Assembly: GCF_032854445.1 (NCBI RefSeq)
Contig: NC_088297.1
Location: 14,065,335 to 14,129,334 of the forward strand
DNA length: 64,000 nucleotides
Source: Liolophura sinensis
Taxonomy: Eukaryota; Mollusca; Polyplacophora; Chitonida; Chitonidae
Direction: 5' to 3'
Below, piece after piece: positions 2,801 to 62,564 of this stretch (within the stretch, counting starts at the first letter, position 1; each line of letters opens with the position of its first letter). Both the position numbers and the translations under genes were made by a program. The notes under the pieces are model-generated. The model saw nothing but the letters and a program-made list of their open reading frames with translations. It ran no database searches and was not told where the DNA came from.

Positions 2801-2832
2801 TATCTAGTAAAATTAGCAATGCAGCGATAATA

Positions 2833-17691: not shown

Positions 17692-17802
17692 CTAAGAAAG
17701 TAAACTCAGACGTGCTGGTCCCAGACACACATTGCATACAAGGCACACCTGGCTGCGATTCCCCATCATCATAGCACACGTTGTCAATAAGACATTTGTT
17801 TT
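17692..17802 (-). CDS. E33: module exon, first of the TSEF subtype
   Basis: 111 bp, phase 1-1, acceptor GTCCAG then AAAAC, donor GTGAGT. It reads KC before the first Cys module segment, GESQPG, and ends SGTSTSEFTFL. It is the 3'-most (in transcript order) copy of the main-array subtype and lies 80 bp from the Penelope-like insertion. Confidence 0.8.
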   Translation of the reverse strand, partial: KTNVLLTTCAMMMGNRSQVCLVCNVCLGPARLSLLS

Positions 17803-17933
17803 CTGGACAAAAACATATTAGCATCAAAGTTAACATAAAGAAGACTGTATTCTTTTTAAAGTCAACAACATAATGGTTCTTATACTGGACAGGGCATTGC
17901 TTATGGATTTACAACTTCTTGGTTTATTGTCAC

Positions 17934-17969
17934 GACGTTTCGATGCAGGTGCTAGCATCGTTATCAAGT
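17934..17969 (-). ncRNA. Hammerhead-like hairpin in the left terminus
   Basis: Minus-strand order: TTGATAAC, stem GATGC, 8-nt loop, GCATC, then GAAACGTC. The GAAA box follows a perfect 5-bp stem II. The CUGAUGA box is changed to UUGAUAA. Penelope-like elements are known to carry hammerhead motifs in their terminal repeats. Activity is doubtful. Confidence 0.35.
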
Positions 17970-19308
17970 GAATGACTTCATTAATGACATCGAAGAAGGC
18001 CAACAATAATTAGCACCCCCTGGCCATATTGACTACCTCCGTCGCCAAATTGCAGCCCTTCTACACAAAGCCCGACCACAACACAGCAACCTGACTAAAG
18101 AAGAAAGTAGAGCACTGACTGAATTGAAGAAAGACAAATCCATAGTCGTAGCACCAGCCGATTAAGGAAAAGCCACTGCCATTCTCGACAGATCAACATT
18201 TAATAAACTAGTTGATAATCTACTAGGAGACTCGACCACATACCAAAAAAGTAAGACCCACCCCATCAATAAATTTGGCCGATGGCACCGTTTAGAACCT
18301 CAACCAACTCAAAACCAGTGGAGAGATCACTTTCGATACACAAAAGAAGTTAACTGTATAACACCTCTGTGTGACCATCAAAATACCCTGTGAAAGCAAG
18401 ACTTTTAGTATGCCCCAAGAGAACAGTCTTCTACAGCACTGCCCAGTACCTTAGGAGACTCCTAGCACCTTGGTCCAAAGCAGCGCATTCCTTTATCAAT
18501 GATTCAGCCGACTTCCGCAACAAAATACGACAGATAGAAGTACCCTGCCAACTTGTTAGCTATGACGTTGTCGACTTATTCACTAACGTCCCAACCAGCT
18601 ATTGAAGTGATCAAAGAAAAAATAACGGTCTCACCACCAGAAACATCCCTATCCCCAGAAAGCATCATACGACTGCTAGACAGCTGTTTGTCCGTAACCT
18701 ACTTTACATCGGGTGACGCAATTTACGAGCAGATCCACGGGCTCCTCATGGGATTCCCGTTATCACCAATAAGGTTGATGACATCTTCGTCGCTCTCCAC
18801 CAAAACGATGATCCTACAGCACTACCTGAGTACCTCAACTCACAACATCATCGCATCAAATACACTATGGAAACAGAGAAAGATGAACAAATACCTTTCT
18901 TAGACGTAAATGTGAAGAGGACAAACGATGGCAACAAAACTACAGTATATCAAAAGCCTACCCACTCCGACCTGTATATTCACTACAAGTGCCACCACCC
19001 ACCCAAGATTAAAACTGGCATCATCTTCACCCTCACCAAGAGAGCTAAACAGATCTGTAACAACAAGCCGGATGAGGAGATTCAACATCTACGTAATGTC
19101 TTCACCCACCTAAATGAATACCCAACCCAAAAAGTCAACAAGACAATCCGGAATGCCTTACAACCTACTACCAGGCTGAGGGTTCTTGGCGAGTGCCCTG
19201 GGATAATAGTTAACCTCCCATACATTGGCCCTTCTGCAATTGTCTACAGGTATAGAAGCAGTGTAAGCCTACCAGGCCTAACAACAATGAAAAAAATAAA
19301 TAAATCAC

Positions 19309-19342
19309 TTGATAACGATGCTAGTATCTGCATCAAAACGTC
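19309..19342 (+). ncRNA. Hammerhead-like hairpin in the right terminus
   Basis: Plus-strand counterpart: TTGATAAC, GATGC, loop, GCATC, AAAACGTC. The GAAA box has decayed to AAAA, so this copy is less likely to be active than the left one. Confidence 0.3.
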
Positions 19343-19393
19343 GTGACAATAAACCAAAAAGCTGTAAATCTATAAGCAATGCCTTGTCCAGTG

Positions 19394-20100
19394 TACTTCC
19401 ATGCCCAACCTTTAAATGCCACTAAAACATATAATGGCTCTTGCCATGGAGAACGCAGAATTGAATAACGAACGTACAAAACACAATTTGCAGGATCCAT
19501 CTGGATCCGCATCGCAATTATCATAAATGATGTCGTGAATGAATATTAATGCATAACCTGCCTGTATTCAGGCCGAAGCATAGATTCATGAACGCCACTA
19601 TTTCATAGAACCAAGTCAATGCATTAACCCGACAGGAAATGTTCTCCTTTCGCCATCATGCTGGTTGCGCCTTTACCGCTATAGTCCTTTCTGTTGGAGG
19701 ATGTTCAGTCTAGGATGGCAATTTTCCAATGATGGCCCACAGAGCCTGGACATTTACTGGTGGTTTTTTGTTCTGATTCTTATCTCCGTACCGAGAATCT
19801 GCATGAACGTGTGTTTCGTACCGAGTAGAGACGCGATACTGATAAGGATTTCTGTGTGTGTCTGTTGGAGCAGGTGGGTGTGTGGGTAGGGATGGGATTA
19901 GGATAATCGGTACGACTTAAAGCTAAAAAAAATTTTCGAGACCAAGACGAAAATGCTTGATATGTGTTATCCCAATGAAAAAAGCAGCTAAATTGTCACT
20001 AATACCAAGAGTACTTAAGCCACAGAGACGTGCAGGATTTATGTTCAATGGTAAAGTACAAGTTAGGCACTCACAAGTTCGCATTTTAACAATCTTAGCC
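19394..20100. other. Degraded array unit: B relic and spacer remains
   Basis: At 19490-19540 the minus strand keeps a B-type relic (DIIYD, DADPDGSCKLC). At 19690-19880 the plus strand resembles the spacer that in other units reads SGDKARIKIR. No intact exon. Confidence 0.5.
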
Positions 20101-20185
20101 CTACTCTTATTAAAAACACTCACCTAAGAAAGTATCAAAGAAAAGTATTACAAATCTTCATTTTACTATTATATAAAGTACTCAC

Positions 20186-20296
20186 CTAAGAAAGTAAACT
20201 CAGACGTGCTGGTCCCAGACACACATTGCATACAAGGCACACCTGGCTGCGACTCCCCATCATCATAGCACACGTTGTCAATAAGACATGTGTTCT
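20186..20296 (-). CDS. E32: module exon
   Basis: First unit after the Penelope-like insertion. QPG form, T before Cys1, acceptor CGTCCAG. A 70-bp partial duplication of the donor side (20116-20185) precedes it. Confidence 0.82.
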   Translation of the reverse strand, partial: RTHVLLTTCAMMMGSRSQVCLVCNVCLGPARLSLLS

Positions 20297-21406
20297 CTGG
20301 ACGCAAACGTATTAGCATCAAAGTTAACATGTAAATGACTCTCTCAATTCAATGAAGAAAGCAAAATCATGTGTTTTTTGGAATCACGGTGCAGACTTCA
20401 ACAAGAAGTGCAGAAAACAAATAAAACGGCCAATAGGTGTAAGACCCTTACAGTATGTGTGTCAACAGGAACAATCCACAGGTGCCCGGATATAAACTCG
20501 AATCAGTGTTTCGTGATCTTGAATGAGAAGCGCAGGAAAATCGATCCTTAAGTGTCACAGAGAAACGTCGGATTGACGCCACTAGCGACAAACATTATGA
20601 CCATGGTCCGCAAACTTACAATGCATTTAAATACATTTAATTTAGAAAAAAAATAAAACTTCTGGAAAAGATGTTTTCATACAATTGTTTCTTTATAATG
20701 TGTCTCCTGTTTTTTATTTCATCGTGTTCTTTCTTCCCTTTAACAATAAGGGAAGATTCACACAATATTCTTGCTTGAAGGTAAAATCAGAAAAGCAGTT
20801 TACATTGCCACAAAATTTGCACGAGGCATTTCCACCCACATCTCCATCATCAAAAATAATGTTGTTACTGAATTTTCATGGATATTCAGTCTCTACCCAG
20901 ACCAAAGTACACGGTAATAAATGCAAACAGCAAACAGGATTAAAACCAAGGCATTGACCACAGCGGTCTTGTTCTAACATTCACGTCATGCTGTTTGTGA
21001 CATGGTCGTAGTTGTCTCCCCTGTATCCACAAACTTGCATTCTAGGATCGTAATGTCCTAATGACGGCTAATTAATCATGGAAATTTACCGCTGGCCTTC
21101 ATTTTTTGTTCCGTCCTTCGTATCCAGACCAGTCATGAATGTCTTTTGTGAAATAAGTGGAGACAAGGCACGCATCAAGATTCGATTGGGTGGCACTCGC
21201 TACCATTTCAAGTGAAGCAATAATAACATAGACTTTGAGAAGAAAAGTATATTTTATCTTAACTAAGCGAGCACCGTATTTGTGCTTCACGCTAAAAGTA
21301 TAGACTCGAGTCCCACACATGCACAATTTTTAAGTAAAGTTAAAGAGCACTAATGACAACTTTACATTTTACAAATCTTAATTTTAATATTATAAAAAGT
21401 ACTCAC

Positions 21407-21517
21407 CTAAGAAAGTAAACTCAGACGTGCTGGTCCCAGACACACATTGCATACAAGGCACACCTGACTGCGACTCCCCATCATCATAGCACACGTTGTC
21501 AATAAGACATGTGTTCT
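21407..21517 (-). CDS. E31: module exon
   Basis: QSG form, T before Cys1, acceptor CGTGCAG. 1,221 bp from E32. Confidence 0.82.
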   Translation of the reverse strand, partial: RTHVLLTTCAMMMGSRSQVCLVCNVCLGPARLSLLS

Positions 21518-22632
21518 CTGCACGCAAACGTATTAGCATCAAAGTTAACATGTAAATGACTCTATCAATTCAACGAAGAAAGCAAAATCATGTGTTTTTT
21601 TGGAATCACGGTGCAGACTTCAACAACAAGTGCAGAAAACAAATAAAATGGCCAAAAGGTGTAAGACCCTTACAGTATGTGTGTCAACAGGAACAATCCA
21701 CAGGTGCCCGGATATAAACTCGAATCAGTGTTTCGTGATCTTAAATGAGAAGCGCAGGAAAATCGTTCCTTAAGTGTCACAGAGAAACGTCGGTTTGACG
21801 CCACTAGCGACAAACATTATGACCATGGTCCGCAAACTTACAATGTAATCATTTAAATACATTTAATTTAGAAAAAAATAAAACATCTGGAAAAGATATT
21901 TTTATACAGTTGTTTCTTTTTAATCTGTCTTCTGTTGTTTATTTCATCCTGTTCTTTCTTTCCCTTTAACAATAAGGGAAGATTCACACAATATTCTTCG
22001 TTGAAGGAAAAATCAGACAAGCAGTTTACATTGCCACAAAATCTCCACGAGGCATTTCCACCCACTTCTCCATCATGAAAAATAATGTTGTTACTGAATC
22101 TTCATGGATCTCCAGTCTCTACCCAGACCAAAGTACACGGTAATAAATGCAAACAGCAAACAGGATTAAAACAAGGGCATTGACCACAGCGGTCTTGTTC
22201 TAAGATTCACGTCATGCTGTTTGTGACATGGTCGTAGTTCTCTCCCCTGTATCCACCAACTTGCATTCTAGGATCGTAATGTCCTAATGACGGCTAATTA
22301 ATCATGGAAATTTACCGCTGGCCTTCATTTTTTGTTCCGTCCTTCGTATCCAGACCAGTCATGAATGTCTTTTGTGAAATAAGTGGAGACAAGGCACGCA
22401 TCAAGATTCGATTGGGTGGCACTCGCTACCATTTCAAGTGAAGCAATAATAACATAGACTTTGAGAAGAAAAGTATATTTTATCTTAACTAAGCGAGCAT
22501 TGTTTTTGTGCTTCACGCTAAAAGTATAGACTCGAGCCCCACACATGCACAATTTTTAAGTAAAGTTAAAGCGCACTAATGACAACTTTACATTTTACAA
22601 CTCTTCATTTTACTATTACAAAAAGTACTCAC

Positions 22633-22743
22633 CTAAGAAAGTAAACTCAGACGTGCTGGTCCCAGACACACATTGCATACAAGGCACACCTGACTGCGAC
22701 TCCCCATCATCATAGCACACGTTGTCAATAAGACATGTGTTCT
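22633..22743 (-). CDS. E30: module exon
   Basis: QSG form, T before Cys1. Start of a two-unit block repeated at +2,373 bp. Confidence 0.82.
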   Translation of the reverse strand, partial: RTHVLLTTCAMMMGSRSQVCLVCNVCLGPARLSLLS

Positions 22744-23844
22744 CTGCACGCAAACGTATTAGCATCAAAGTTAACATGTAAATGACTCTCTCAATTCAAC
22801 GAAGTAAGCAAAATCATGTGTTTTTTGGAATGACGCTGCAGACTTTAACAAGAAATGCAGAAAACAAATAAAATGGCCGAAAGGTGTAAGACCCTTACAG
22901 TATGTGTGTCAACAGGAACAATCCACAGGTGCCCGGATATAAACTCGAATCAGTGTTTCGTGATCTTGAATGAGAAGCGCAGGAAAATCGATCCTTAAGT
23001 GTCACAGAGAAACGTCGGATTGACGCCACTAGCGACAAACATTATGACCATGGTCCGCAAACTTACAATGCATTTAAATACATTTAATTTTGAAAAAAAT
23101 AAAACTTCTGGAAAAGATGTTTTCATACAATTGTTTCTTTTTAATGTGTCTCCTGTTATTAATTTCATCCTGTTCTTTCTTTCCCTTTAACAATAAGGGA
23201 AGATTCACGCAATATTCTTGCTTGAAGGCAAAATCAGACAAGCAGTTTACATTGCATAAAGAAGAAGTTCCACCCACATCTCCATCATCAAAAATAATGT
23301 TGTTACTGAATCTTGATGGGTCTTCAGTCTCTACCCAGCCCAAAGCACACGGTATTACATGCAAACAGCAAACAGGATTAAAACCAAGGCATTGACCACA
23401 GCGGTCTTGTTCTAAGATTCAGGTCATGCTGTTTGTGACATGGTCGTAGTTGTCTCCCCTGTATCCACAAACTTGCATTCTAGGATCGTAATGTCCTAAT
23501 GACGGCTAATTGATCATGGAAATTTACCGCTGGCCTTCAATTTTTGTTCCGTCATTCGTATCCAGACCAGTCATAAATGTCTTTTGTGAAATAAGTGGAG
23601 ACAAGGCACGCATCAAGATTCGTGTGGGCGGCACTCACCAACATTTTCAGTAAAGCAATAATAGCATAGGCTTTGAGAAGAAAAGTATATTTTATCTTAA
23701 CTAATCGAGCACCGAATTTGTGCTTCATGCTGAATATATAGACTCGAGCCCCATACATGCACAATTTTTAAGTAAAGTTAAAGCGCACTAATGACAACTT
23801 TACATTTTACAAATCTTCATTTTACTATTATAAAAAGTACTCAC

Positions 23845-23955
23845 CTAAGAAAGTAAACTCAGACGTGCTGGTCCCAGACACACATTGCATACAAGGCACA
23901 CCTGGCTGCGACTCCCCATCATCATAGCACACGTTGTCAATAAGACATGTGTTCT
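23845..23955 (-). CDS. E29: module exon
   Basis: QPG form, T before Cys1. Partner of E27 in the 2,373-bp block duplication. Confidence 0.82.
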   Translation of the reverse strand, partial: RTHVLLTTCAMMMGSRSQVCLVCNVCLGPARLSLLS

Positions 23956-25005
23956 CTGCACGCAAACGTATTAGCATCAAAGTTAACATGTAAATGACTC
24001 TCTCAATTCAAAGAAGAAAACAAAATCATGTGTTTTTTGGAATGACGCTGCAGACTTGAACAAGAAGTGCAGAAAACAAATAAAATGGCCAAAAGGTGTA
24101 AGACCCTTACAGTATGTGTGTCAACAGAAAGAATCCACAGGTGCCCGGATATAAACTCGAATCAGTGTTTCGTGATCTTGAATGAGAAGCACAGGAAAAT
24201 CGATACTTAAGTGTCACAGAGAAGCGTCAGTTTGACGCCACTAGCGACAAAAATTATGACCATGGTCTGCAAACTTACAATGCAATCATTTAAATACATT
24301 TAATTTAGACAAAAAAATCATCTGGAAAAGCTATTTTCATACAGTTATTTTTTTAATCTGTCTTTCTTGTTTATTTTATCCTGTTCTTTCCTTTCCTTTA
24401 ACAATGAGGGAAGATTCACACAATATTCTTGCTTGAAGGTAAAATCAGACAAGTAGTTTACATTGCATGAAGAAGCATTTCCACCCACTTCTCCATCATC
24501 AAAAATAATGTTGTTACTAAATCTTGATGGGTCTCCAGTCTCTACCCAGCCCAAAGTACACGATTATATATGCAAACAAGATTAAAACCAAGGCATTGAC
24601 CACAGCGGTCTTGTTTTAAGATTCACGTCATGCTGTTTGTGACATGGTCGTAGTTGTCTCTCCTGTATCCACAAACTTGCATTCTAGGATCGTAATGTCC
24701 TAATGACGGCTAATTGATCATGGAAATTTACAGCTGGCCGTCTTTTGTGAAATAAGTGGAGACAAGGCACGCATCAAGATTCGATTGGGTGGCACTCGCT
24801 ACCATTTCAAGTGAAGCAATAATAACATAGACTTTGAGAAGAAAAGTATATTTTATCTTAACTAAGCGAGCATTGTTTTTGTGCTTCACGCTAAAAGTAT
24901 AGACTCGAGTCCCACACATGCACAATTTTTAAGTAAAGTTAAAGCGCACTAACGACAACTTTACATTTTACAACTCTTCATTTTACTATTACAAAAAGTA
25001 CTCAC

Positions 25006-25116
25006 CTAAGAAAGTAAACTCAGACGTGCTGGTCCCAGACACACATTGCATACAAGACACACCTGACTGCGACTCCCCATCATCATAGCACACGTTGTCA
25101 ATAAGACATGTGTTCT
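25006..25116 (-). CDS. E28: module exon
   Basis: QSG form, T before Cys1. GVPC reads GVSC (complement of CAAGACACACC). Partner of E30. Confidence 0.82.
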   Translation of the reverse strand, partial: RTHVLLTTCAMMMGSRSQVCLVCNVCLGPARLSLLS

Positions 25117-26217
25117 CTGCACGCAAACGTATTAGCATCAAAGTTAACATGTAAATGACTCTCTCAATTCAACGAAGTAAGCAAAATCATGTGTTTTTTG
25201 GAATGACGCTGCAGACTTTAACAAGAAATGCAGAAAACAAATAAAATGGCCGAAAGGTGTAAGACCCTTACAGTATGTGTGTCAACAGGAACAATCCACA
25301 GGTGCCCTGATATAAACTCGAATCAGTGTTTCGTGATCTTGAATGAGAAGCGCAGGAAAATCGATCCTTAAGTGTCACAGAGAAACGTCGGATTGACGCC
25401 ACTAGCGACAAACATTATGACCATGGTCCGCAAACTTACAATGCATTTAAATACATTTAATTTTGAAAAAAATAAAACTTCTGGAAAAGATGTTTTCATA
25501 CAATTGTTTCTTTTTAATGTGTCTCCTGTTATTAATTTCATCCTGTTCTTTCTTTCCCTTTAACAATAAGGGAAGATTCACGCAATATTCTTGCTTGAAG
25601 GCAAAATCAGAAAAGCAGTTTACATTGCATAAAGAAGAAGTTCCACCCACATCTCCATCATCAAAAATAATGTTGTTACTGAATCTTGATGGGTCTTCAG
25701 TCTCTACCCAGCCCAAAGCACACGGTATTACATGCAAACAGCAAACAGGATTAAAGCCAAGGCATTGACCACAGCGGTCTTGTTCTAAGATTCAGGTCAT
25801 GCTGTTTGTGACATGGTCGTAGTTGTCTCCCCTGTATCCACAAACTTGCATTCTAGGATCGTAATGTCCTAATGACGGCTAATTGATCATGGAAATTTAC
25901 CGCTGGCCTTCAATTTTTGTTCCGTCATTCGTATCCAGACCAGTCATAAATGTCTTTTGTGAAATAAGTGGAGACAAGGCACGCATCAAGATTCGTGTGG
26001 GCGGCACTCACCAACATTTTCAGTAAAGCAATAATAGCATAGGCTTTGAGAAGAAAAGTATATTTTATCTTAACTAATCGAGCACAGAATTTGTGCTTCA
26101 TGCTGAATATATAGACTCGAGCCCCATACATGCACAATTTTTAAGTAAAGTTAAAGCGCACTAATGACAACTTTACATTTTACAAATCTTCATTTTACTA
26201 TTATAAAAAGTACTCAC

Positions 26218-26328
26218 CTAAGAAAGTAAACTCAGACGTGCTGGTCCCAGACACACATTGCATACAAGGCACACCTGGCTGCGACTCCCCATCATCATAG
26301 CACACGTTGTCAATAAGACATGTGTTCT
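26218..26328 (-). CDS. E27: module exon
   Basis: QPG form, T before Cys1. Its spacer matches that of E29 almost base for base. Confidence 0.82.
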   Translation of the reverse strand, partial: RTHVLLTTCAMMMGSRSQVCLVCNVCLGPARLSLLS

Positions 26329-27378
26329 CTGCACGCAAACGTATTAGCATCAAAGTTAACATGTAAATGACTCTCTCAATTCAAAGAAGAAAACAAAATC
26401 ATGTGTTTTTTGGAATGACGCTGCAGACTTGAACAACAAGTGCAGAAAACAAATAAAATGGCCAAAAGGTGTAAGACCCTTACAGTATGTGTGTCAACAG
26501 AAAGAATCCACAGGTGCCCGGATATAAACTCGAATCAGTGTTTCGTGATCTTGAATGAGAAGCACAGGAAAATCGATCCTTAAGTGTCACAGAGAAGCGT
26601 CAGTTTGACGCCACTAGCGACAAAAATTATGACCATGGTCTGCAAACTTACAATGCAATCATTTAAATACATTTAATTTAGACAAAAAAATCATCTGGAA
26701 AAGCTATTTTCATACAGTTATTTTTTTAATCTGTCTTTCTTGTTTATTTTATCCTGTTCTTTCCTTTCCTTTAACAATGAGGGAAGATTCACACAATATT
26801 CTTGCTTGAAGGTAAAATCAGACAAGTAGTTTACATTGCATGAAGAAGCATTTCCACCCACTTCTCCATCATCAAAAATAATGTTGTTACTAAATCTTGA
26901 TGGGTCTCCAGTCTCTACCCAGCCCAAAGTACACGATTATATATGCAAACAAGATTAAAACCAAGGCATTGACCACAGCGGTCTTGTTTTAAGATTCACG
27001 TCATGCTGTTTGTGACATGGTCGTAGTTGTCTCTCCTGTATCCACAAACTTGCATTCTAGGATCGTAATGTCCTAATGACGGCTAATTGATCATGGAAAT
27101 TTACAGCTGGCCGTCTTTTGTGAAATAAGTGGAGACAAGGCACGCATTAAGATTCGTTTGGGTGGCACTCGCTACCATTACAAGTGAAGCAATAATAACA
27201 TAGACTTTGAGAAGAAAAGTATATTTTATTTTAACTAAGCGAGCATTGTTTTTGTGCTTTATGCTGAATATATAGACTCGAGCCCCACACATGCACAATT
27301 TTTAAGTAAAGTTAAAGCGCACTAATGACAACTTTACATTTTACAACTCTTCATTTTACTATTATAAAAAGTACTCAC

Positions 27379-37159: not shown

Positions 37160-37270
37160 CTAAGAAAGTAAACTCAGACGTGCTGGTCCCAGACACACAT
37201 TGCATACAAGGCACACCTGACTGCGACTCCCCATCATCATAGCACACGTTGTCAATAAGACATTTGTTCT
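37160..37270 (-). CDS. E18: module exon
   Basis: QSG form, K before Cys1, acceptor CGTCCAG. In the 1,226-bp series. Confidence 0.82.
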   Translation of the reverse strand, partial: RTNVLLTTCAMMMGSRSQVCLVCNVCLGPARLSLLS

Positions 37271-38385
37271 CTGGACGCAAACGTATTAGCATCAAAGTTA
37301 ACATGTAAATGACTCTCTCAATTCAACAAAGAAAGCAAAATCATGTGTTTTTTGGAATCACGGTGCAGACTTGAACAAGAACTGCAGAAAACAAATAAAA
37401 TGGCCAAAAGGTGTAAGAACCTGAGAGTATGTGTGTCAACAGAAAGAATCCACAGGTGCCCGGATATAAACTCGAATCAGTGCTTCGTGATCTTGAATGA
37501 GAAGCGCAGGAAAATCGATCCTTAACTGTCACAGAGAAACGTCGGTTTAACGCCACTAGCGACAAACATTATCACCATGCTCCACAAATTTACAATGCAG
37601 TCATTTAAATACATTTAATTTAGAAAAAAAATAAAACTTCTGGAAAAGATATTTTGATACAATTGTTTCTTTTTAATTTGTCTTCTGTCGTTTATTTCAT
37701 CCTGTTTTTACTTTCCCTTTAACAATAAGGGAAGATTCACACAATATTCTTGCTTGAAGGTAAAATCAGACAAGCAGTTTACATTGCCACAAAATTTGCA
37801 CGAAGCATTCCCACCGACATCTCCATCATCAAAAATAATGTTGTTACTGAATCTTGATGGGTCTCCAGTCTCTACCCAGCCCAAAGTACACGGTAATACA
37901 TGCAAACAGCAAACAGGACTAAAACCAAGGCATTGACCACAACGGTCTTGTTCTTACATTCACGTCATGCTGTTTGTGACATGGTCGTAGTTGTCTAAAC
38001 TGTATCCACAAGCATGAATTCTAGGATCGTAATGTCCTAATGACGGCTAATTGATTATTCAAATTTACCGCTGGCCTTCATTTTTTGTTCCGTCCTTCGT
38101 ATCCAGACCAGTCATAAATGACTTTTGCGAAATAAGTGGAGACAAGGCACGCATTAAGATTCGTTTGGGTGGCACTCGCTACCATTTCAAGTGAAGCAAT
38201 AATAACATACACTTTGAGAAGAAAAGTATATTTTATCTTAACTAAACGAGCACCGTTTTTGTGTTTCACGCTGAAAGTATAAACTCGAGCCCCACACATG
38301 CACAATTTTTAAGTAAAGTTAAAGCGCACTAATGACAACTTTACATTTTACAACTCTTCATTTTACTATTATAAAAAGTACTCAC

Positions 38386-38496
38386 CTAAGAAAGTAAACT
38401 CAGACGTTCTGGTCCCAGACACACATTGCATACAAGGGACACCTGACTGCGACTCCCCATCATCATAGCACACGTTGTCAATAAAACATTTGTTCT
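38386..38496 (-). CDS. E17: module exon
   Basis: QSG form, K before Cys1, CFID instead of CLID, TRTS instead of TSTS, and a silent GTG to GTC change. In the 1,226-bp series. Confidence 0.82.
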   Translation of the reverse strand, partial: RTNVLLTTCAMMMGSRSQVSLVCNVCLGPERLSLLS

Positions 38497-39611
38497 CTGG
38501 ACGCAAACGTATTAGCATCAAAGTTAACATGTAAATGACTCTCTCAATTCAACGAAGAAAGCAAAATCATGTGTTTTTTGGAATCACGGTGCAGACTTGA
38601 ACAAGAACTGCAGAAAACAAATAAAATGGCCAAAAGGTGTAAGAACCTGAGAGTATGTGTGTCAACAGAAAGAATCCACAGGTGCCCGGATATAAACTCG
38701 AATCAGTGCTTCGTGATCTTGAATGAGAAGCGCAGGAAAATCGATCCTTAACTGTCACAGAGAAACGTCGGTTTAACGCCACTAGCGACAAACATTATCA
38801 CCATGCTCCACAAATTTACAATGCAGTCATTTAAATACATTTAATTTAGAAAAAAAATAAAACTTCTGGAAAAGATATTTTGATACAATTGTTTCTTTTT
38901 AATTTGTCTTCTGTCGTTTATTTCATCCTGTTTTTACTTTCCCTTTAACAATAAGGGAAGATTCACACAATATTCTTGCTTGAAGGTAAAATCAGACAAG
39001 CAGTTTACATTGCCACAAAATTTGCACGAAGCATTCCCACCGACATCTCCATCATCAAAAATAATGTTGTTACTGAATCTTGATGGGTCTCCAGTCTCTA
39101 CCCAGCCCAAAGTACACGGTAATACATGCAAACAGCAAACAGGACTAAAACCAAGGCATTGACCACAACGGTCTTGTTCTTACATTCACGTCATGCTGTT
39201 TGTGACATGGTCGTAGTTGTCTAAACTGTATCCACAAGCATGAATTCTAGGATCGTAATGTCCTAATGACGGCTAATTGATTATTCAAATTTACCGCTGG
39301 CCTTCATTTTTTGTTCCGTCCTTCGTATCCAGACCAGTCATAAATGACTTTTGCGAAATAAGTGGAGACAAGGCACGCATTAAGATTCGTTTGGGTGGCA
39401 CTCGCTACCATTTCAAGTGAAGCAATAATAACATACACTTTGAGAAGAAAAGTATATTTTATCTTAACTAAACGAGCACCGTTTTTGTGTTTCACGCTGA
39501 AAGTATAAACTCGAGCCCCACACATGCACAATTTTTAAGTAAAGTTAAAGCGCACTAATGACAACTTTACATTTTACAACTCTTCATTTTACTATTATAA
39601 AAAGTACTCAC

Positions 39612-39722
39612 CTAAGAAAGTAAACTCAGACGTGCTGGTCCCAGACACACATTGCATACAAGGGACACCTGACTGCGACTCCCCATCATCATAGCACACG
39701 TTGTCAATAAAACATTTGTTCT
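39612..39722 (-). CDS. E16: module exon
   Basis: Shares CFID and the silent GTC with E17 but keeps TSTS. In the 1,226-bp series. Confidence 0.82.
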   Translation of the reverse strand, partial: RTNVLLTTCAMMMGSRSQVSLVCNVCLGPARLSLLS

Positions 39723-40837
39723 CTGGACGCAAACGTATTAGCATCAAAGTTAACATGTAAATGACTCTCTCAATTCAACGAAGAAAGCAAAATCATGTGT
39801 TTTTTGGAATGACGGTGCAGACTTGAACAAGAACTGCAGAAAACAAATAAAATGGCCAAAAGGTGTAAGAACCTGAGAGTATGTGTGTCAACAGAAAGAA
39901 TCCACAGGTGCCCGGATATAAACTCGAATCAGTGCTTCGTGATCTTGAATGAGAAGCGCAGGAAAATCGATCCTTAATTGTCACAGAGAAACGTCGGTTT
40001 AACGCCACTAGCGACAAACATTATCACCATGCTCCACAAATTTACAATGCAGTCATTTAAATACATTTAATTTAGAAAAAAAATAAAACTTCTGGAAAAG
40101 ATATTTTGATACAATTGTTTCTTTTTAATTTGTCTTCTGTCGTTTATTTCATCCTGTTCTTTCTTTCCCTTTAACAATAAGGGAAGATTCACACAATATT
40201 CTTGCTTGAAGGTAAAATCAGACAAGCAGTTTACATTGCCACAAAATTTGCACGAAGCATTCCCACCGACATCTCCATCATCAAAAATAATGTTGTTACT
40301 GAATCTTGATGGGTCTCCAGTCTCTACCCAGCCCAAAGTACACGGTAATACATGCAAACAGCAAACAGGACTAAAATCAAGGCATTGACCACAACGGTCT
40401 TGTTCTTACATTCACGTCATGCTGTTTGTGACATGGTCGTAGTTGTCTAAACTGTATCCACAATCATGAATTCTAGGATCGTAATGTCCTAATGACGGCT
40501 AATTGATTATTCAAATTTACCGCTGGCCTTCATTTTTTGTTCCGTCCTTCGTATCCAGACCAGTCATAAATGACTTTTGCGAAATAAGTGGAGACAAGGC
40601 ACGAATTAAGATTCGTTTGGGTGGCACTCGCTACCATTTCAAGTGAGGCAATAATAACATAGACTTTGAGAAGAAAAGTATATTTTATCTTAACTAAGCG
40701 AGCAGCGTTTTTGTGTTTTACGCTGAAAGTATAGACTCGAGCCCCACACATGCACAATTTTTAAGTAAAGTTAAAGCGCACTAATGACAACTTTACATTT
40801 TACAAATCTTCATTTTACTAATATAAAAAGTACTCAC

Positions 40838-40948
40838 CTAAGAAAGTAAACTCAGACGTGCTGGCCCCAGACACACATTGCATACAAGGCACATCTGGCT
40901 GCGACTCCCCATCATCATAGCACACGTTGTCAATAAGACATGTGTTCT
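40838..40948 (-). CDS. E15: module exon
   Basis: QPD instead of QPG, GASTS instead of GTSTS, T before Cys1. Partner of E12 at +3,623 bp. Confidence 0.82.
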   Translation of the reverse strand, partial: RTHVLLTTCAMMMGSRSQMCLVCNVCLGPARLSLLS

Positions 40949-48076: not shown

Positions 48077-48187
48077 CTAAGAAAGTAAACTCAGACGTGC
48101 TGGTCCCAGACACACATTGCATACAAGGCACACCTGACTGCGACTCCCCATCATCATAGCACACGTTGTCAATAAGACATGTGTTCT
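48077..48187 (-). CDS. E9: module exon
   Basis: QSG form, T before Cys1. Partner of E6 at +3,568 bp. Confidence 0.82.
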   Translation of the reverse strand, partial: RTHVLLTTCAMMMGSRSQVCLVCNVCLGPARLSLLS

Positions 48188-49210
48188 CTGCACGCAAACG
48201 TATTAGCATCAAAGTTAACATGAAAATGACTCTCTCAATTCAACGAAGAAAGCAAAATCATGTGTTTTTTGGAATGACGGTGCAGACTATAACAAGAAGT
48301 GCAGAAAACAAATAAAATGGCCAATAGGTGTAAGACCCTTACAGTATGTGTGTCAACAGAAAGAATCCACAGGTGCCCGGATATAAACTCGAATCAGTGC
48401 TTCCTGATCTTGAATGAGAAGCACAGGAAAATCGATACTTAAGTGTCACAGAGAAACGTCGTGTTGACGCCAATAGCGACAAACATTATGACCATGCTCC
48501 GCAAACTTACAATGTAATCATTTAAATACATTTAATTTAGACAAAAAAATCATCTGGAAAAGAGATTTTCATACAGTTATTTTTTTGATCTGTCTTTCTT
48601 GTTTATTTCATCCTGTTCTTTCCTTTCCTTTAACAATAAGGGAAGATTCACACAATATTCTTGCTTGAAGGTAAAATCAGACAAGCAGTTTACATTGCAT
48701 GAAGAAGCATTTCCACCCACATCTCCATCATCAAAAATAATGTTGTTACTGAATCTTGATGGGTCTCCAGTCTCTACCCAGCCCAAAGTACACGGTAATA
48801 CATGCAAACAGGATTAAAACCAAGGCTTTGACCACAACGGTCTTGTTCTAAGATTCACGACATGCTGTTTGTAACAAGGTCGTAGTTGTCTCCCGGGTCC
48901 AGAAACTTGCATTCTAGGATCGTAATGTCCTAATGAGGGCTAATTGATCATGGAAATTTACCGCTGGCCGTCTTTTGTGAAATAAGTGGAGACAAGGCAC
49001 GCAGTAAGATTCGTTTGGGTGGCACTCGCTACCATTTCAAGTGAAGAAAATTATATTTTATCTTAAGTAAGCGAGCATTGTTTTTGTTCTTTATGCTGAA
49101 AGTATAGACTCGAGCCCCACACATGCACAATTTTTAAGTAAAGTTAAAGCGCACTAATGACAACTTTACATTTTACAACTCTTCATTTTACTATTATAAA
49201 AAGTACTCAC

Positions 49211-49321
49211 CTAAGAAAGTAAACTCAGACGTGCTGGTCCCAGACACACATTGCATACAAGGCACACCTGACTGCGACTCCCCATCATCATAGCACACGT
49301 TGTCAATAAGACATTTGTTCT
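49211..49321 (-). CDS. E8: module exon
   Basis: QSG form, K before Cys1. The unit between E9 and E8 is the shortest (1,134 bp). Confidence 0.82.
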   Translation of the reverse strand, partial: RTNVLLTTCAMMMGSRSQVCLVCNVCLGPARLSLLS

Positions 49322-50416
49322 CTGGACGCAAACGTATTAGCATCAAAGTTAACATGTAAATGACTCTCTCAATTCAACGAAGGAAGCAAAATCATGTGTT
49401 TTTTGGAATCACGGTGCAGACTTGAACAAGAACTGCAGGAAACAAATAAAATGGCCAATAGGTGTAAGACCCTTACAGTATGTGTGTCAACAGAAAAAAT
49501 CCACAGGTGCCCGGATATAAACTCGAATCAGTGCTTCGTGATCTTGAATGAGAAGCACAGGAAAATCGATCCTTAAGTGTCACAGAGAAACGTCGATTTG
49601 ACGCCACTAACCACAAACATTATGACCATGGTCCGCAAACTTACATTTAATTTAGAAAAAAATAAAACATCTGGAAAAGATATTTTTATACAGTTGTTTC
49701 TTTTTAATCTCTCTTCTGTTGTTTATTTCATCCTGTTTTTTCTTTCCCTTTAACAATAAGGGAAGATTCACACAATATTCTTGCTTGAAGGAAAAATCAG
49801 ACAAGCAGTTTACATTGCCACAAAATTTGTACGAAGCATTTCCACCCACATCTCCATCATCAAAAATAATGTTGTTACTGAACCTTGATGGGTCTTCAGT
49901 CTCTACCTAGCCCAAAGTACACGGTTATACATGCAAACAGCAAACAGGACTAAAACCAAGGCATTGACCACAGCGGTCTTGTTCTAATATTCACGTCTTG
50001 CTGTTTGTGACATGATCGTAGTTGTCTAAACTGTATCCAGAAACTTGCATTCTAGGATCGTAATGTCCTAATGATGGCTAATTGATCATGGAAATTTACC
50101 GCTGGCCTTCATTTTTTGTTCCGTCCTTCCCATCCAGACCAGTCATAAATGACTTTTGTGAAATAAGTGGAGACAAGGCACGCATCAAGATTCGTGTGGG
50201 TGGCACTCACCAACATTTTCAGTAAAGCAATAAGAGCATTGGCTTTGAGAAGAAAAGTATATTTTATCTTACCTAAGCGAGCACCGTTTTTGTGCTTCAC
50301 GCTGAATATATAGACTCGAGCTCCACACATGCACAATTTTCAAGTAAAGTTAAAGCGCACTAATGACAACTTTACATTTTACAAATCTTCATTTTACTAT
50401 TATAAAAAGTACTCAC

Positions 50417-50527
50417 CTAAGAAAGTAAACTCAGACGTGCTGGTCCCAGACACACATTGCATACAAGGCACACCTGGCTGCGACTCCCCATCATCATAGC
50501 ACACGTTGTCAATAAGACATTTGTTCT
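50417..50527 (-). CDS. E7: module exon
   Basis: QPG form, K before Cys1. Spacer nearly identical to that of E10. Confidence 0.82.
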   Translation of the reverse strand, partial: RTNVLLTTCAMMMGSRSQVCLVCNVCLGPARLSLLS

Positions 50528-51644
50528 CTGGACGCAAACGTATTAGCATCAAATTTAACATGTAAATGACTCTCTCAATTCAACGAAGAAAGCTAAATCA
50601 TGTGTTTTTTGGAATGACGGTGCAGACTTCAACAAGAAGTGCAGAAAACAAATAAAATGGCCAAAAGGTGTAAGACCCTTACAGTATGTGTGTCAACAGG
50701 AACAATCCACAGGTGCCCGGATGTAAACTCGAATCAATGCTTCGTGATCTTGAATGAGAAGCGCAGGAAAATCGATCCTTAAGTGTCACAGAGAAACGTC
50801 GGATTGACGCCACTAGCGACAAACATTATCACCATGGTCCGCAAACTTACAATGCAATCATTTAAGTAGATTTAATTTAGAAAAACAAATAAAACATCTG
50901 GAAAAGATATTTTTATACAGTTTTTTTTTTTTTAATGTGTCTTCTGTTGTTTATTTCATTCTGTTCTTTCTTTCCCTTTAACAATAAGGGAAGATTCACA
51001 CAATATTCTTCCTTGAAGGAAAAATCAGACAAGCAGTTTACATTGCCATAAAATTTGCACGAAGCATTTCCACCCACTTCTCCATTAAGAAAAAAAATGT
51101 TGTTACTGAATCTTGATGGGTCTCCAGTCTCTACCCAGCCCAAAGTACACGGTAAAATATGCAAACAGCAAACAGGATTAAAACAAAGGCATTGACCACA
51201 GCGGTCTTGTTCTAAGATTCACGTCATGCTGTTTGTGACATGGTCGTAGTTGTCTCTCCTGTATCCAGAAACTTGAATTCTAGGATCGTAATGTCCTAAT
51301 GACGGCTAATTGATCATGGAAATTTACCGCTGGCCTTCAATTTTTGTTCCGTCCTTCGTATCCAGACCAGTCATAAATGACTTTTGTGAAATAAGTGGAG
51401 ACAAGGCACGCATCAAGATTCGTCTAGGTGGCACTCACCAACATTTTCAGTAAAGCAATAATAGCATAGGCTTTGAGAAGAAAAGTATATTTTATCTTAA
51501 CTAAGCGAGCACCGTTTTTGTGCTTTACGCTGAATATATAGACTCGAGCCCCACACATGCACAATTTTTAAGTAAACTTTAAGCCCACTAACGAGAACTT
51601 TACAATTTACAAATTATCATTTTAATATTATAAAAAGTACTCAC

Positions 51645-51755
51645 CTAAGAAAGTAAACTCAGACGTGCTGGTCCCAGACACACATTGCATACAAGGCACA
51701 CCTGACTGCGACTCCCCATCATCATAGCACACGTTGTCAATAAGACATGTGTTCT
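51645..51755 (-). CDS. E6: module exon
   Basis: QSG form, T before Cys1. Spacer nearly identical to that of E9. Confidence 0.82.
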   Translation of the reverse strand, partial: RTHVLLTTCAMMMGSRSQVCLVCNVCLGPARLSLLS

Positions 51756-52848
51756 CTGCACGCAAACGTATTAGCATCAAAGTTAACATGAAAATGACTC
51801 TCTCAATTCAACGAAGAAAGCAAAATCATGTGTTTTTTGGAATGACGGTGCAGACTATAACAAGAAGTGCAGAAAACAAATAAAATGGCCAATAGGTGTA
51901 AGACCCTTACAGTATGTGTGTCAACAGAAAGAATCCACAGGTGCCCGGATATAAACTCGAATCAGTGCTTCCTGATCTTGAATGAGAAGCACAGGAAAAT
52001 CGATACTTAAGTGTCACAGAGAAACGTCGTGTTGACGCCAATAGCGACAAACATTATGACCATGCTCCGCAAACTTACAATGTAATCATTTAAATACATT
52101 TAATTTAGACAAAAAAATCATCTGGAAAAGAGATTTTCATACAGTTATTTTTTTGATCTGTCTTTCTTGTTTATTTCATCCTGTTCTTTCCTTTCCTTTA
52201 ACAATAAGGGAAGATTCACACAATATTCTTGCTTGAAGGTAAAATCAGACAAGCAGTTTACATTGCATGAAGAAGCATTTCCACCCACATCTCCATCATC
52301 AAAAATAATGTTGTTACTGAATCTTGATGGGTCTCCAGTCTCTACCCAGCATAAAGTACATGGTTATACATGCAAAAAGGATTAAAATAAAGGCATTGAC
52401 CACAGCGGTGTTGTTCTAAGATTCACGTCATGCTGTTTGTGACATGGTCGTAGTTGTCTCCCCTGTATCCACAAACTTGCATTCTAGGATCGTAATGTCC
52501 TAATGACGGCTAATTGATCATGGAAATTTACGGCTGGCCTTTATTTTTTCTTCCGTCATTCGAATCCAGACCAGTCATGAATGTCTTTTGTGAAATAAGT
52601 GGAGACAAGGCACGCATCAAGATGCGTGTGGGTGGCACTCACCAACATTTCCAGTAAAGCAATAATAGCATAGACTTTGAGAGGAAAAGTATATTTTATC
52701 TTAACTAAGTGAGCACCGTATTTGTGTTTCACGCTGAAAGTATAGACTCGAGCCCCACACATGCACAATTTTTAAGTAAACTTTAAGCCCACTAACGACA
52801 ACTTTACAATTTGCAAATCTTCATTTTACTATTTTACAAAGTACTCAC

Positions 52849-52959
52849 CTAAGAAAGTAAACTCAGACGTGCTGGTCCCAGACACACATTGCATACAAGG
52901 CACACCTGACTGCGACTCCCCATCATCATAGCACACGTTGTCAATAAGACATGTGTTGT
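52849..52959 (-). CDS. E5: module exon
   Basis: QSG form, T before Cys1. The first exon bases are ACAAC instead of AGAAC, changing the split codon. Shared only with E4, 1,204 bp away. Confidence 0.82.
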   Translation of the reverse strand, partial: TTHVLLTTCAMMMGSRSQVCLVCNVCLGPARLSLLS

Positions 52960-54052
52960 CTGGACGCAAACGTATTAGCATCAAAGTTAACATGTAAATG
53001 ACTCTCTCAATTCAACGAAGAAAGCAAAATCATGTGTTTTTTGGAATGACGGTGCAGACTATAACAAGAAGAGCAGAAAACAAATAAAATGGCCAATAGG
53101 TGTAAGACCCTTACAGTATGTGTGTCAACAGAAAGAATCCACAGGTGCCCGGATATAAACTCGAATCAGTGCTTCCTGATCTTGAATGAGAAGCACAGGA
53201 AAATCGATACTTAAGTGTCACAGAGAAACGTCGTGTTGACGCCAATAGCGACAAACATTATGACCATGCTCCGCAAACTTACAATGTAATCATTTAAATA
53301 CATTTAATTTAGACAAAAATATCATCTGGAAAAGAGATTTTCATACAGTTATTTTTTTGATCTGTCTTTCTTGTTTATTTCATCCTGTTCTTTCCTTTCC
53401 TTTAACAATAAGGGAAGATTCACACAATATTCTTGCTTGAAGGTAAAATCAGACAAGCAGTTTACATTGCATGAAGAAGCATTTCCACCCACATCTCCAT
53501 CATCAAAAATAATGTTGTTACTGAATCTTGATGGGTCTCCAGTCTCTACCCAGCATAAAGTACATGGTTATACATGCAAAAAGGATTAAAATAAAGGCAT
53601 TGACCACAGCGGTGTTGTTCTAAGATTCACGTCATGCTGTTTGTGACATGGTCGTAGTTGTCTCCCCTGTATCCACAAACTTGCATTCTAGGATCGTAAT
53701 GTCCTAATGATGGCTAATTGATCATGGAAATTTACGGCTGGCCTTTATTTTTTCTTCCGTCATTCGAATCCAGACCAGTCATGAATGTCTTTTGTGAAAT
53801 AAGTGGAGACAAGGCACGCATCAAGATGCGTGTGGGTGGCACTCACCAACATTTCCAGTAAAGCAATAATAGCATAGACTTTGAGAGGAAAAGTATATTT
53901 TATCTTAACTAAGTGAGCACCGTATTTGTGTTTCACGCTGAAAGTATAGACTCGAGCCCCACACATGCACAATTTTTAAGTAAACTTTAAGCCCACTAAC
54001 GACAACTTTACAATTTGCAAATCTTCATTTTACTATTTTACAAAGTACTCAC

Positions 54053-54163
54053 CTAAGAAAGTAAACTCAGACGTGCTGGTCCCAGACACACATTGCATAC
54101 AAGGCACACCTGACTGCGACTCCCCATCATCATAGCACACGTTGTCAATAAGACATGTGTTGT
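54053..54163 (-). CDS. E4: module exon
   Basis: Same variants as E5. The two units are almost identical across 1,204 bp, one of the youngest duplications. Confidence 0.82.
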   Translation of the reverse strand, partial: TTHVLLTTCAMMMGSRSQVCLVCNVCLGPARLSLLS

Positions 54164-55274
54164 CTGGACGCAAACGTATTAGCATCAAAGTTAACATGTA
54201 AATGACTCTCTCAATTCAATGAAGAAAGAAAAATCATGTGTTTTTTGGAATGACGGTGCAGACTTGAACAAGAAGTGCAGAAAACAAATAAAATGGCCAA
54301 TAGGTGTAAGACCCTTACAGTATGTGTGTCAAAAGAAAGAATCCACAGGTGCCCGGATATAAACTCGAATCAGTGTTTCAGATCTTGAATGAGAAGCGCA
54401 GGAAAATCGATTTTTAAGTGTCACAGAGAAACGTCGGTTTGACGCCAATAGCGACAAACATTATGACCATGGTCCGCAAACTTACAATGCAATCATTTAA
54501 ATACATTTAATTTAGAAAAAAATAAAACATCTGGAAAAGGTGTTTTCATAAAGTTGTTTCTTTTCAATGTGTCTTCTGTTTTTTATTTCATTCTGTTCTT
54601 TCTATCCCTTTAACAATAAGGAAAATTCACACATTATCTTGCTTGAAGGAAAAGTCAGACAAACAGTTTACATTGCCACCAAATTTGCACCAAGCATTTC
54701 CACCCACATCTCCATCATCAAAAATAATGTTGTTACTGAATCTTGATGGGTCTCCAGTCTCTACCCAGCCCAAAGTACACGGTAATAAATGCAAACAGCA
54801 AACAAGATTAAAACCAAGGCATTCACCACAGCGGTCTTGTTCTAAGATTCACGTCATGCTGTTTGTGACATGGTCGTAGTTGTCTCTCCTGTATCCACAA
54901 ACTTGCATTCTAGGATCGTAATGTCCTAATGACGGCTAATTGATCATGGAAATTTACCGCTGGCCTTTATTTTTTGTTCCGTCCTTCGAATCCAGACCAG
55001 TCATGAATGTCTTTTGTGAAATAAGTGGAGACAAGGCACGCATTAAGATTCGTGTGGGTGGCACTCTCCAACATTTCCAGTAAAGCAATAATAGCATAGA
55101 CTTTGAGAAGAAAAGTATATTTTATCTTAACTAAGCGAGCATTGTTTTTGTGTTTCACACTGAAAGTATAGACTCGAGCCCCACACATGCACAATTTTTA
55201 AGTAAACTTTAAGCCCACTAATGACAACCTTACAATTTGCAAATCTTCATTTTACTATTTTACAAAGTACTCAC

Positions 55275-55385
55275 CTAAGAAAGTAAACTCAGACGTGCTG
55301 GTCCCAGACACACATTGCATACAAGGCACACCTGACTGCGACTCCCCATCATCATAGCACACGTTGTCAATAAGACATTTGTTCT
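55275..55385 (-). CDS. E3: module exon
   Basis: QSG form, K before Cys1 with acceptor CGTGCAG. Last copy of the homogeneous array. Confidence 0.82.
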   Translation of the reverse strand, partial: RTNVLLTTCAMMMGSRSQVCLVCNVCLGPARLSLLS

Positions 55386-56404
55386 CTGCACGCCAACGTA
55401 TTAGCATCAAAGTTAACATGTAAATGACTCTCTCAATTCAACGAAGAAAGCAAAATCATGTGTTTTTTGGAATGACGGTGCAGACTATAACAAGAAGAGC
55501 AGAAAACAAATAAAATGGCCAATAGGTGTAAGACCCTTACAGTATGTGTGTCAACAGAAAGAATCCACAGGTGCCCGGATATAAACTCAAATCAGTGCTT
55601 CGTGATCTTGAATGAGAAGCACAGGAAAATCGATCCTTAAGTGTCACAGAGAAACGTCGGTTTGACGCCAATAGCATTATGACCATGGTCCGCAAACTTA
55701 CAATGCAATCATTTAAATACATTTAATTTAGACAAAAAAAATCAACTGGAAAAGCTATTTTCATACAGTTATTTTTTTAATCTGTCTTTCTTGTTTATTT
55801 CATCCTGTTCTTTCTTTCCCTTTAACAATAAGGGAAGATTCACACAATATTCTTGCTTGAAGGTAAAATCAGACAAGCAGTTTACATTGCATGAAGAAGC
55901 ATTTCCACCCACATCTCCATCATCAAAAATAATGTTGTTACTGAATCTTGATGGGTCTCCAGTCTCTACCCACCCCAAAGCACACGGTAATACGTGCAAA
56001 CAGCAAACAGGATTAAAACCAAGGCATTGACCACAGCGGCCTTGTTCTAAGACTGTCGTCATGCTACTTGCGACATGATCGTAGTTGTCTCCCCTGTATC
56101 CACAAACTTGCATTCTAGGATCGTAATGTCCTAATGACGGCTAATTGATCATGGAAATTTACGGCTGGCCTTCACTTTTTGTGCCGTCCTTTGTATCCAG
56201 ACCAGTCATGAATGTCTTTGTGAAATAAGTGGAGACAAGGCACGCATCAAGATTCGGTTGGGTGGCACTCGCCACCATATTCAGTAAAGCAATAATAACA
56301 GACTTTGAGAAGAAAAGTATATTTTATCTTAACTAAGCGAGCATTGTTTTTGTGTTTCACACTGAAAGTATAGACTCGAGCCCCACAGATGCACAATTTT
56401 CAAG

Positions 56405-57300
56405 TAAACTTAAATCGCACTAACGATAACACAAGCATATTAGCATCAAAGTTAACATGAAAAATTCTCTCTCAATTCAAACAAGGCGCAAAAAACCATG
56501 TTTCCAGAATAACAGTGCAAACAATAAACTGAAAAAGCACCTAAAATGGTTAATCAGGCCTTTAAAGTGTGTGTGTTAAGAGGTGTCTGGATGGAAAACT
56601 AGTTTAAACAGTTCGTGATCTTGAATGAGAAGCACAGGAAAATCGATCCGTAAGTGTCACAAAGAAAAAAGTCGCTCGGACAAGAAAAACCTAAGACATC
56701 TGCAAACGTTTCTTTTTTCAGATATGGCTTTTTTTGTCTTTCTCCTGTTGTATATTTCATCCTGTCCTGTCTTACCCGTAAACAATGAGGGAAAATTCAC
56801 ACAATACTCGCATTGGATGGTACAAGCAAGGCAAGATGTTTACACTGTTCCATAATTTTCAGGAATAATTTGGATCCACATATCCGGCATAAAAATGATG
56901 TTGTTAATAACCCTTGATGAGCATTCTGCCTGTATCCATCCCAAAGAACGCGGTCATGAATACAACCAACGAGCAAAATTAAAGCCAAGGCATTGACCAC
57001 AGCGGTAAAATTATATTCTCCTACTCCTAACATTCTCCTACGTCATGCTGCTTGCGACATGATCGCAGCTGTCGCCCCTATATCCAAAAACTTGTTGTTG
57101 CGAAATGTGTGGAGACAAGACACGCATCAAGATTCCTGTGGGTGGCACTTACTACCATTTCAAGTGAAGCACAAATACCATAGACTTCCAGAAGAAAAGT
57201 ATATTTTATATTTGTGATTTACACTAGAAGTACAGACTTCAGCCACACAGATGCAATAACAAGTTCACATTTTAACAATCGTAACTATTATAAACGGTAC
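56405..57300 (-). pseudogene. Decayed array unit that lost its A exon; B relic with leader-like frame
   Basis: At about 56,430 the sequence jumps from the donor-side intron (GCACTAACGATAAC) to the acceptor-side intron (CATATTAGCATCAAAG), deleting the whole A exon. The B relic at 56,840-56,930 has no cysteines. Next to it, 56,950-57,033 reads a hydrophobic stretch from a Met (FTAVVNALALILLVGC), which resembles a signal peptide but has no good donor. Confidence 0.6.
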
Positions 57301-57304
57301 TCAC

Positions 57305-57415
57305 CTAAGAAAGTAAACGCAGAGGTGCTGGTCCCAGACACACATTGCATACAAGGCACACCTGACTGCGACTCCCCATCGTCATAACACACGTTGTCGA
57401 TAAGACATTTGTTCT
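57305..57415 (-). CDS. E2: module exon, edge copy
   Basis: QSG form, K before Cys1, TSAF instead of TSEF. Donor GTGAGT and acceptor GTCCAG intact. 2,030 bp from E3 because one unit between them lacks its A exon. Confidence 0.8.
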   Translation of the reverse strand, partial: RTNVLSTTCVMTMGSRSQVCLVCNVCLGPAPLRLLS

Positions 57416-58840: not shown

Positions 58841-58844
58841 TGAG

Positions 58845-59815: not shown

Positions 59816-59819
59816 TCAC

Positions 59820-62555: not shown

Positions 62556-62564
62556 TGTATACTT

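Follow-up and report, generated by a model that had tools for sequence, protein, structure and literature searches.

A stretch of 64,000 nucleotides of the Liolophura sinensis genome (the window; C3:14065335-14129334 of a 609 Mb assembly, C coordinates being those of the assembly and L labels denoting fetched genome stretches) carries on its minus strand an array of 32 near-identical, symmetric exons of one type (A), each encoding a cysteine-rich module. To judge from its sequence, the exon array is real and probably functional within a full-length gene model. We consider it likely that it belongs to a single gene for a long secreted, acidic, disulphide-rich extracellular filament, the number of whose modules would change by unequal crossing-over.

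A preliminary description of this stretch had placed thirty-two minus-strand exons of 111 bp between 17692 and 57415, and exon extraction reproduced this range exactly (first exon 17692-17802, last 57305-57415). It also bore out the AG acceptor and GTGAGT donor (32/32 each), phase 1-1 (32/32, with 8 nt before and 103 nt after the first base of the Cys1 codon), and the cysteine spacing C-x5-C-x11-C-x2-C (32/32), with stops, frameshifts and cysteine losses at 0/32. The exons, each ending 110 bp beyond its start, begin at 17692, 20186, 21407, 22633, 23845, 25006, 26218, 27379, 28606, 29918, 31141, 32320, 33489, 34708, 35934, 37160, 38386, 39612, 40838, 42020, 43245, 44461, 45643, 46850, 48077, 49211, 50417, 51645, 52849, 54053, 55275 and 57305. 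Because they are symmetric, any number of modules can be joined in frame, as had been proposed, and each gain or loss of a unit is frame-neutral. Among the 32 exons there are 14 distinct DNA sequences and 13 distinct peptides, and the window's six frames contain the cysteine pattern 38 times, versus 0.025 on average and at most 1 in 40 mononucleotide shuffles. The spacing between A exons is 1,134-1,312 bp in 29 of the 31 intervals; the two outliers measure 2,494 bp, with a transposon inserted, and 2,030 bp. A broken retroelement with 71-bp terminal inverted repeats (91.5% identical) occupies 17901-19375, between the A exons at 17692 and 20186; it contains a VDDIF motif that we take to be reverse-transcriptase-like, and a Pfam scan of its longest piece returned no retroelement match.

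The gene model that accommodates this array spans about 80 kb, beginning with a putative signal-peptide exon that lies upstream of the window and closing with the stop codon at 5676. Spliced in silico, it yields one open frame for a predicted precursor of 1,804 residues (195 kDa, isoelectric point (pI) 4.05) with 183 cysteines and 42 modules between the N-terminal exons a and b and a conserved C-terminal domain. This run of exons in matching phases, from putative signal-peptide exon to terminal exon, and the homologous end exons in two paralogues give good support, at the level of a gene model, to the suggestion of one giant repetitive secreted protein. The earlier figure of about 39 modules stands insofar as it counts the 32 A exons and seven flanking downstream exons, and is short of the 42 in the model by the intact exon at 61038-61145 inside the window and two more upstream of it; neither the terminal coding exon nor the decayed second module of the repeats, described below, had been mentioned.

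All exons of the model within the window lie on the minus strand. On the 5' side of the array is a C'-type module exon of 108 bp (61038-61145; phase 1-1, splice sites intact, Cys2 absent). On its 3' side come four B-type exons of 111 bp (17141-17251, 16232-16342, 12585-12695 and 11678-11788) and one divergent exon, E, of 114 bp (13594-13707), then a C-type exon of 111 bp (10245-10355), with counterparts at L022:3456 and L038:4149 by position and likeness, and a D-type exon of 132 bp (7664-7795), the last module, which includes a Trp and has counterparts at L022:806, L016:8331 and L038:1864; all seven are in phase 1-1. The terminal coding exon (5676-5917) is entered in phase 1 and encodes a Cys-rich C-terminal domain and the stop codon; it is 62% identical to the copy in L016 and 59% to that in L022, and an AATAAA hexamer about 150 bp past the stop codon (5521-5526, minus strand) is a possible poly(A) signal. 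Upstream of the window, the model continues with a c-type module that has lost Cys3 (L010:220-110), the first module m1 (L010:2327-2216, phase 0-1), exon b (L010:4263-4015, phase 0-0), exon a (L011:246-80, phase 1-0) and the putative signal-peptide exon (L011:2217-2145), which ends in phase 1. C'-type modules without the second cysteine, assigned to this type by likeness and position, occur in three copies (61038-61145 of the window, L022:4268 and L016:6203); their cysteine count is odd, and the free cysteine could cross-link chains.

Evidence that the A exons are maintained comes from the repeats themselves. In an alignment of 29 units, from which the intervals of 2,494 and 2,030 bp were left out, mean divergence was 7.4% in introns (0.09-10.4%) and 1.9% in the A exon. 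The A exon varied at 13 of 111 columns (diversity 0.019) and was open in 29/29 units, and none of 1,002 intron windows of 111 columns was open in all 29, the minima being 27 variable columns and a diversity of 0.046. Relative to the intron, both synonymous (p = 0.026) and nonsynonymous (p = 5e-7) changes were depleted; counted over all 32 A exons, the events numbered 8 synonymous and 11 nonsynonymous. About 575-655 bp after the A exon start, each unit also holds a decayed C'-type module that has lost its Cys1 codon and donor (for example 20770-20870, minus strand). Blastn recovered its likeness to the live C'-type exon at 61038-61145 at E<=0.01 in 27 of the 29 units; the remaining two gave E 0.4. 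Since all 29 units lack both the Cys1 codon and a donor at the corresponding site, the loss is older than the amplification. In the decayed module 35 of 90 columns are variable, a proportion like that of the introns (382 of 1,046), and 9/29 units have gaps; in the examples printed, a reading frame is still open across the module. Each repeat thus pairs a maintained module with a relaxed one, the decayed one serving as an internal neutral control. Three further decayed modules lie between 61038-61145 and the array, all on the minus strand: one B-like, with its 5' part and acceptor lost (59800-59915), one C'-like (58825-58920; hidden Markov model (HMM) E 2.1e-4) and a weak A-like match (58010-58070; HMM E 0.09). 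A decayed second copy of the terminal exon, with stops inside, is found at 2993-3178 on the same strand.

The most unusual point lies outside the window, where neighbouring paralogues have homologous ends and differently composed arrays. A genome search with the A module (E<=0.001, 150 of 156 candidates scored, so that counts are lower bounds) gave at least 110 matches, 109 on C3 at 13.69-15.06 Mb and one on C1; the paralogue arrays were read in part (L025-L027, L037 and L038). Gene 3 (C3 about 13.775-13.834 Mb) consists of a putative signal-peptide exon, a, b, m1, an array, C, D and a terminal exon. Its array is built of units of 3,209 bp that carry five module exons apiece; one adjacent pair of units differs at 25 of 3,209 bp, and the 11 occurrences of its a-type module (97-100% identity) point to about 11 units, so that the gene may hold some 55 modules. 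Gene 2 (C3 about 13.720-13.754 Mb) has the same 5' exons as gene 3, including the putative signal-peptide exon, an array of four-module units of ~2.74-2.76 kb (96.3% identity in the one pair compared) and a terminal exon at C3:13719748. Its a-type module is present in five full copies and one copy split by a frameshift (L025:7575-7630, C3 about 13733600), which could be skipped as a symmetric exon or could reflect an assembly error. Apart from m1, the modules listed in L025-L027 share the 8/103 boundaries of a 111-bp, phase 1-1 exon; the only ones that do not are three entries in L025, namely a truncated copy and both halves of the copy split by the frameshift.

The 5' exons are homologous and in the same order in the window gene and the two paralogues, and the putative signal-peptide exons are in phase 1. 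The full set of family features (a, b, m1, phase 1-1 modules, C, D and terminal exon) is present in the window gene and gene 3; those read in gene 2 are a, b, m1, the array and the terminal exon. A single giant gene comprising arrays 2 and 3 was considered and rejected, since each array has its own N-terminal exons and is followed by a terminal exon. Shorter or partial members were found in L022, in L016 (opposite strand) and in L021 (C1). Of the 12 genome matches of the terminal exon at E<=1, 11 are free of stops (six on C3, four on C1 and one on C13; weakest E 0.02); the remaining one is the window's own decayed copy. The distant members comprise the four terminal-exon matches in C1:93.017-93.372 Mb, two of them scored identically and 107 kb apart, module matches at C1:93.15-93.27 Mb, and the terminal exon at C13:15881619. 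In a midpoint-rooted tree of 71 exons of 111 bp, read for topology alone given such short sequences, the A and B modules adjoin the d-type modules of genes 2 and 3, a placement that suggests that essentially one ancestral module type was amplified in the window gene.

Comparison of nonsynonymous (dN) and synonymous (dS) divergence, given here as dN/dS pairs, indicates constraint on the end exons when the window gene is set against gene 3 (exon b 0.433/1.145, exon a 0.456/1.237). For the terminal exon, the values were 0.292/0.564 (window versus L022), 0.263/0.486 (window versus L016) and 0.224/0.253 (L016 versus L022). Between genes 2 and 3, the closer pair, they were 0.037/0.087 for exon b and 0.082/0.086 for exon a; among the modules, dN was below dS in a (0.098/0.295) and b (0.143/0.192) and above it in c and d (values below); the pooled ratio was 0.77.

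The array bears marks of growth by blocks. By nearest-neighbour units, 46952 and 48179 pair with 50519 and 51747, 23947 and 25108 pair with 26320 and 27481, and 52951 pairs with 54155; a run of four related units occupies 37262-40940. This pattern would be the trace of unequal crossing-over or of other recombination between repeats, and we infer that the former acted. Divergence differs by array, at 0.8% between two units of array 3, 3.7% between two of array 2 and a mean of 7.4% in the window introns, and by this measure the three arrays differ in age. Symmetric exons and recent block duplications, seen in one assembly, make plausible two readings put forward at the outset, namely isoforms that differ in module number and copy number that differs between individuals.

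A mechanism can be proposed that connects these features. The putative signal-peptide exon, exons a and b, m1, the symmetric modules and the terminal exon would be joined in one mRNA. An ancestral repeat may have carried two modules, one of which decayed before amplification and the other of which expanded to 32, and sister genes 2 and 3 amplified units of four and five modules between homologous end exons. Crossover between mispaired repeats would add or remove whole modules, and the frame would survive because the module exons are symmetric. The cysteine content, the pI of 4.05, the putative signal peptide, the near-identical modules and the conserved ends are consistent with a secreted structural product, an extended extracellular filament (matrix, mucus, adhesive or coat) that would be held by its conserved ends and whose length would be set by module number.

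Several results weigh against this interpretation. Changes within the array numbered 3 synonymous in 23.3 sites versus 10 nonsynonymous in 86.7 (29 units; p = 1), and the ratio of nonsynonymous to synonymous diversity (piN/piS) was 0.77. Synonymous and nonsynonymous sites are depleted alike, so that the constraint seen is at the level of the exon, with no separate sign of selection on the amino acids within the array. Two of the 42 modules (61038-61145 and L010:220-110) lack one cysteine. The putative signal-peptide exon was chosen by its hydrophobicity, its phase and its likeness to the exons of the two paralogues, and its donor scores 7 of 9. Two earlier signal-peptide scans gave no convincing exon, and the present one came from a third scan, in which the gene-2 region was added and the limits were looser. 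The exon reads '...ICWFVGILTISTKFVNG' in the window gene and '...SWILFVVSVWMKPVNG' and '...SWILYVVSVWMKQVNG' in the paralogues. Finally, dN exceeds dS between genes 2 and 3 in modules c (0.262/0.206) and d (0.209/0.164), values that would suit a fast-evolving binding surface no less than a structural filament.

This last observation bears directly on the main rival as to function, an alternative that is compatible with the favored gene model: that the family is a rapidly evolving defence, reproductive or otherwise interacting set of secreted proteins, in which the cysteines are fixed, the surfaces diversify and module number adds avidity. The apparent excess of dN in modules c and d while cysteines, frame and splice sites persist speaks for such a family, as do clustered and recently amplified paralogues; however, each module offers only 3 to 5 synonymous differences, the ratios of modules a and b are below 1 and the 32 A copies are homogeneous rather than diversified, and we hold this alternative to be possible but on balance doubtful. 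Less probable is a role of the array as a source of alternative or mutually exclusive exons, in which each transcript would include few A exons and length isoforms would result. Skipping would be frame-neutral, given that all A exons are symmetric and have near-identical splice sites, and for the mucin family SmPoMuc of Schistosoma mansoni transcripts are described with 1 to 100 copies of exon 2 versus at most about 20 in the genes (PMC2576457). Yet the 32 A exons specify only 13 peptides, the four commonest in 8, 7, 4 and 3 copies, so that the choice of exons would alter length more than content.

Very little probability attaches to the view that the array is a decaying remnant, produced by selfish or passive amplification of tandem repeats in a non-functional gene. 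Marks of decay do exist, in the three upstream modules (one a weak match), the in-repeat module, the broken reverse-transcriptase-like element inside the array and the second terminal exon, but 0/32 A exons are damaged in stop, frameshift, splice site or cysteine despite 7.4% intron divergence, and the decayed module of the same units shows what relaxation looks like locally, unlike the A exon. It is at least as improbable that the copy number is an artefact of assembly: a single unit could be spurious, as units 38488 and 39714 differ by ~0.1% in their introns, but no two introns among the 29 aligned units are identical, most pairs are several per cent apart and unit lengths vary.

The statement that the module belongs to no named family held for the parts scanned. 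None of these reached a Pfam cut-off, and searches of PDB sequences gave no credible relative (best E 0.23). Sub-threshold Pfam matches included DUF6085 (17.3 bits, exon b), VWC (13.2 bits) and PSI (13.2 bits), and domain scans of the decayed terminal exon and two stop-to-stop pieces of the window were uninformative. VWC (PF00093) resembles the module in being a small disulphide unit with a C-x2-C pair; a VWC domain has about ten cysteines, versus four in 37 residues here. Two joined strings of paralogue modules matched it at 13.2 and 11.3 bits and single modules did not (0/18 and 0/29), and membership was rejected, the best score being below the curated cut-off of 27.6 bits. EGF-like domains have six cysteines, and an EGF-like identity was likewise set aside for a module with four and with no Pfam EGF match in the parts scanned. 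Exon b ('GWLVSVSND...YD..C..C') together with the C-x5-CY...C-x2-C...W module is an arrangement that may resemble a stretch of VWDE-type extracellular proteins. VWDE carries, as one account describes it, EGF repeats alongside a von Willebrand domain (PMC9117669), and passages of PMC9117669 and PMC8930769 leave the likeness tentative. Pfam gave no VWD or EGF domain in the parts scanned, in which an exon may have been missed. In the titles and abstract openings of the open PMC papers that the searches listed, no description of the module or the gene family was recognised.

As a gene model, the locus has the make-up of an intragenic exon variable-number tandem repeat, with tandem near-identical units in one gene and in-frame symmetric exons. 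The kind of layout is already known. In human LPA, each repeat unit adds in-frame disulphide-bonded kringles. LPA kringle IV type 2 is described as a series of tandem genomic units in one secreted-protein gene, the number of which gives rise to many isoforms (PMC6314250, PMC11201333); the domain there is a kringle, the unit measures 5.6 kb and copy number is established to vary between people, whereas here the module is a 37-residue unit with four cysteines, three paralogues have different units and the data are from one assembly. SmPoMuc is described as having genomic repeats of ~1 kb with one 27-bp exon each, in about 20 copies at most (PMC2576457). It resembles the window gene in its repeated short in-frame exon, its clustered family members and its signal peptide, which is putative in the window gene, and differs in that the 27-bp exon encodes a 9-residue mucin repeat, with microsatellites between repeats, where the window gene has 111 bp, four cysteines and 32 copies. 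Membership of either protein family was rejected, as Pfam scans of modules and paralogue strings gave no kringle match and the exon is of 111 rather than 27 bp.

Other repeats surround the exons. Minisatellites with units of 20-54 bp lie 3' of the terminal exon (2580-2777 and 4146-5423) and in the intron upstream of 61145 (62009-62557 and 63339-63724), and a repeat of ~70 bp was seen by reading in the intron after exon b (L010 about 2560-3700). An element resembling a short interspersed element has eight matches in the window (6566-6661, 6906-6989, 8183-8280, 10546-10642, 10991-11088, 13947-14044, 14473-14570 and 63842-63926), 81-97% identical to a core typed by eye, and similar copies occur 5' of exon b in L010; the copies in the window look molluscan. 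Scanning the window for Rfam families and tRNA genes gave 0 matches.

To our knowledge, few genes are known to change coding length by whole exons, chiefly from medicine (LPA) and parasites (SmPoMuc). Although the layout has these precedents, the gene family and the parallel arrays look new, and they add a disulphide module of 37 residues that is so far uncatalogued, along with a conserved C-terminal domain. Tentatively, and with odds somewhat against it, the family may be one that repeatedly evolves length-coded extracellular proteins, in which protein length would be a fast, heritable and frame-safe trait differing between individuals. The units, with one module per 1.2 kb, four per ~2.75 kb and five per 3.2 kb, would have been amplified at different times; whole-module exchange would supply the variation, and the cysteine scaffold would be the element that chiefly stays fixed. 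Three sister genes in one genome, with different units amplified at different times between homologous ends, together with a neutral control inside the repeats of one of them, make the drivers and limits of exon-array growth testable.

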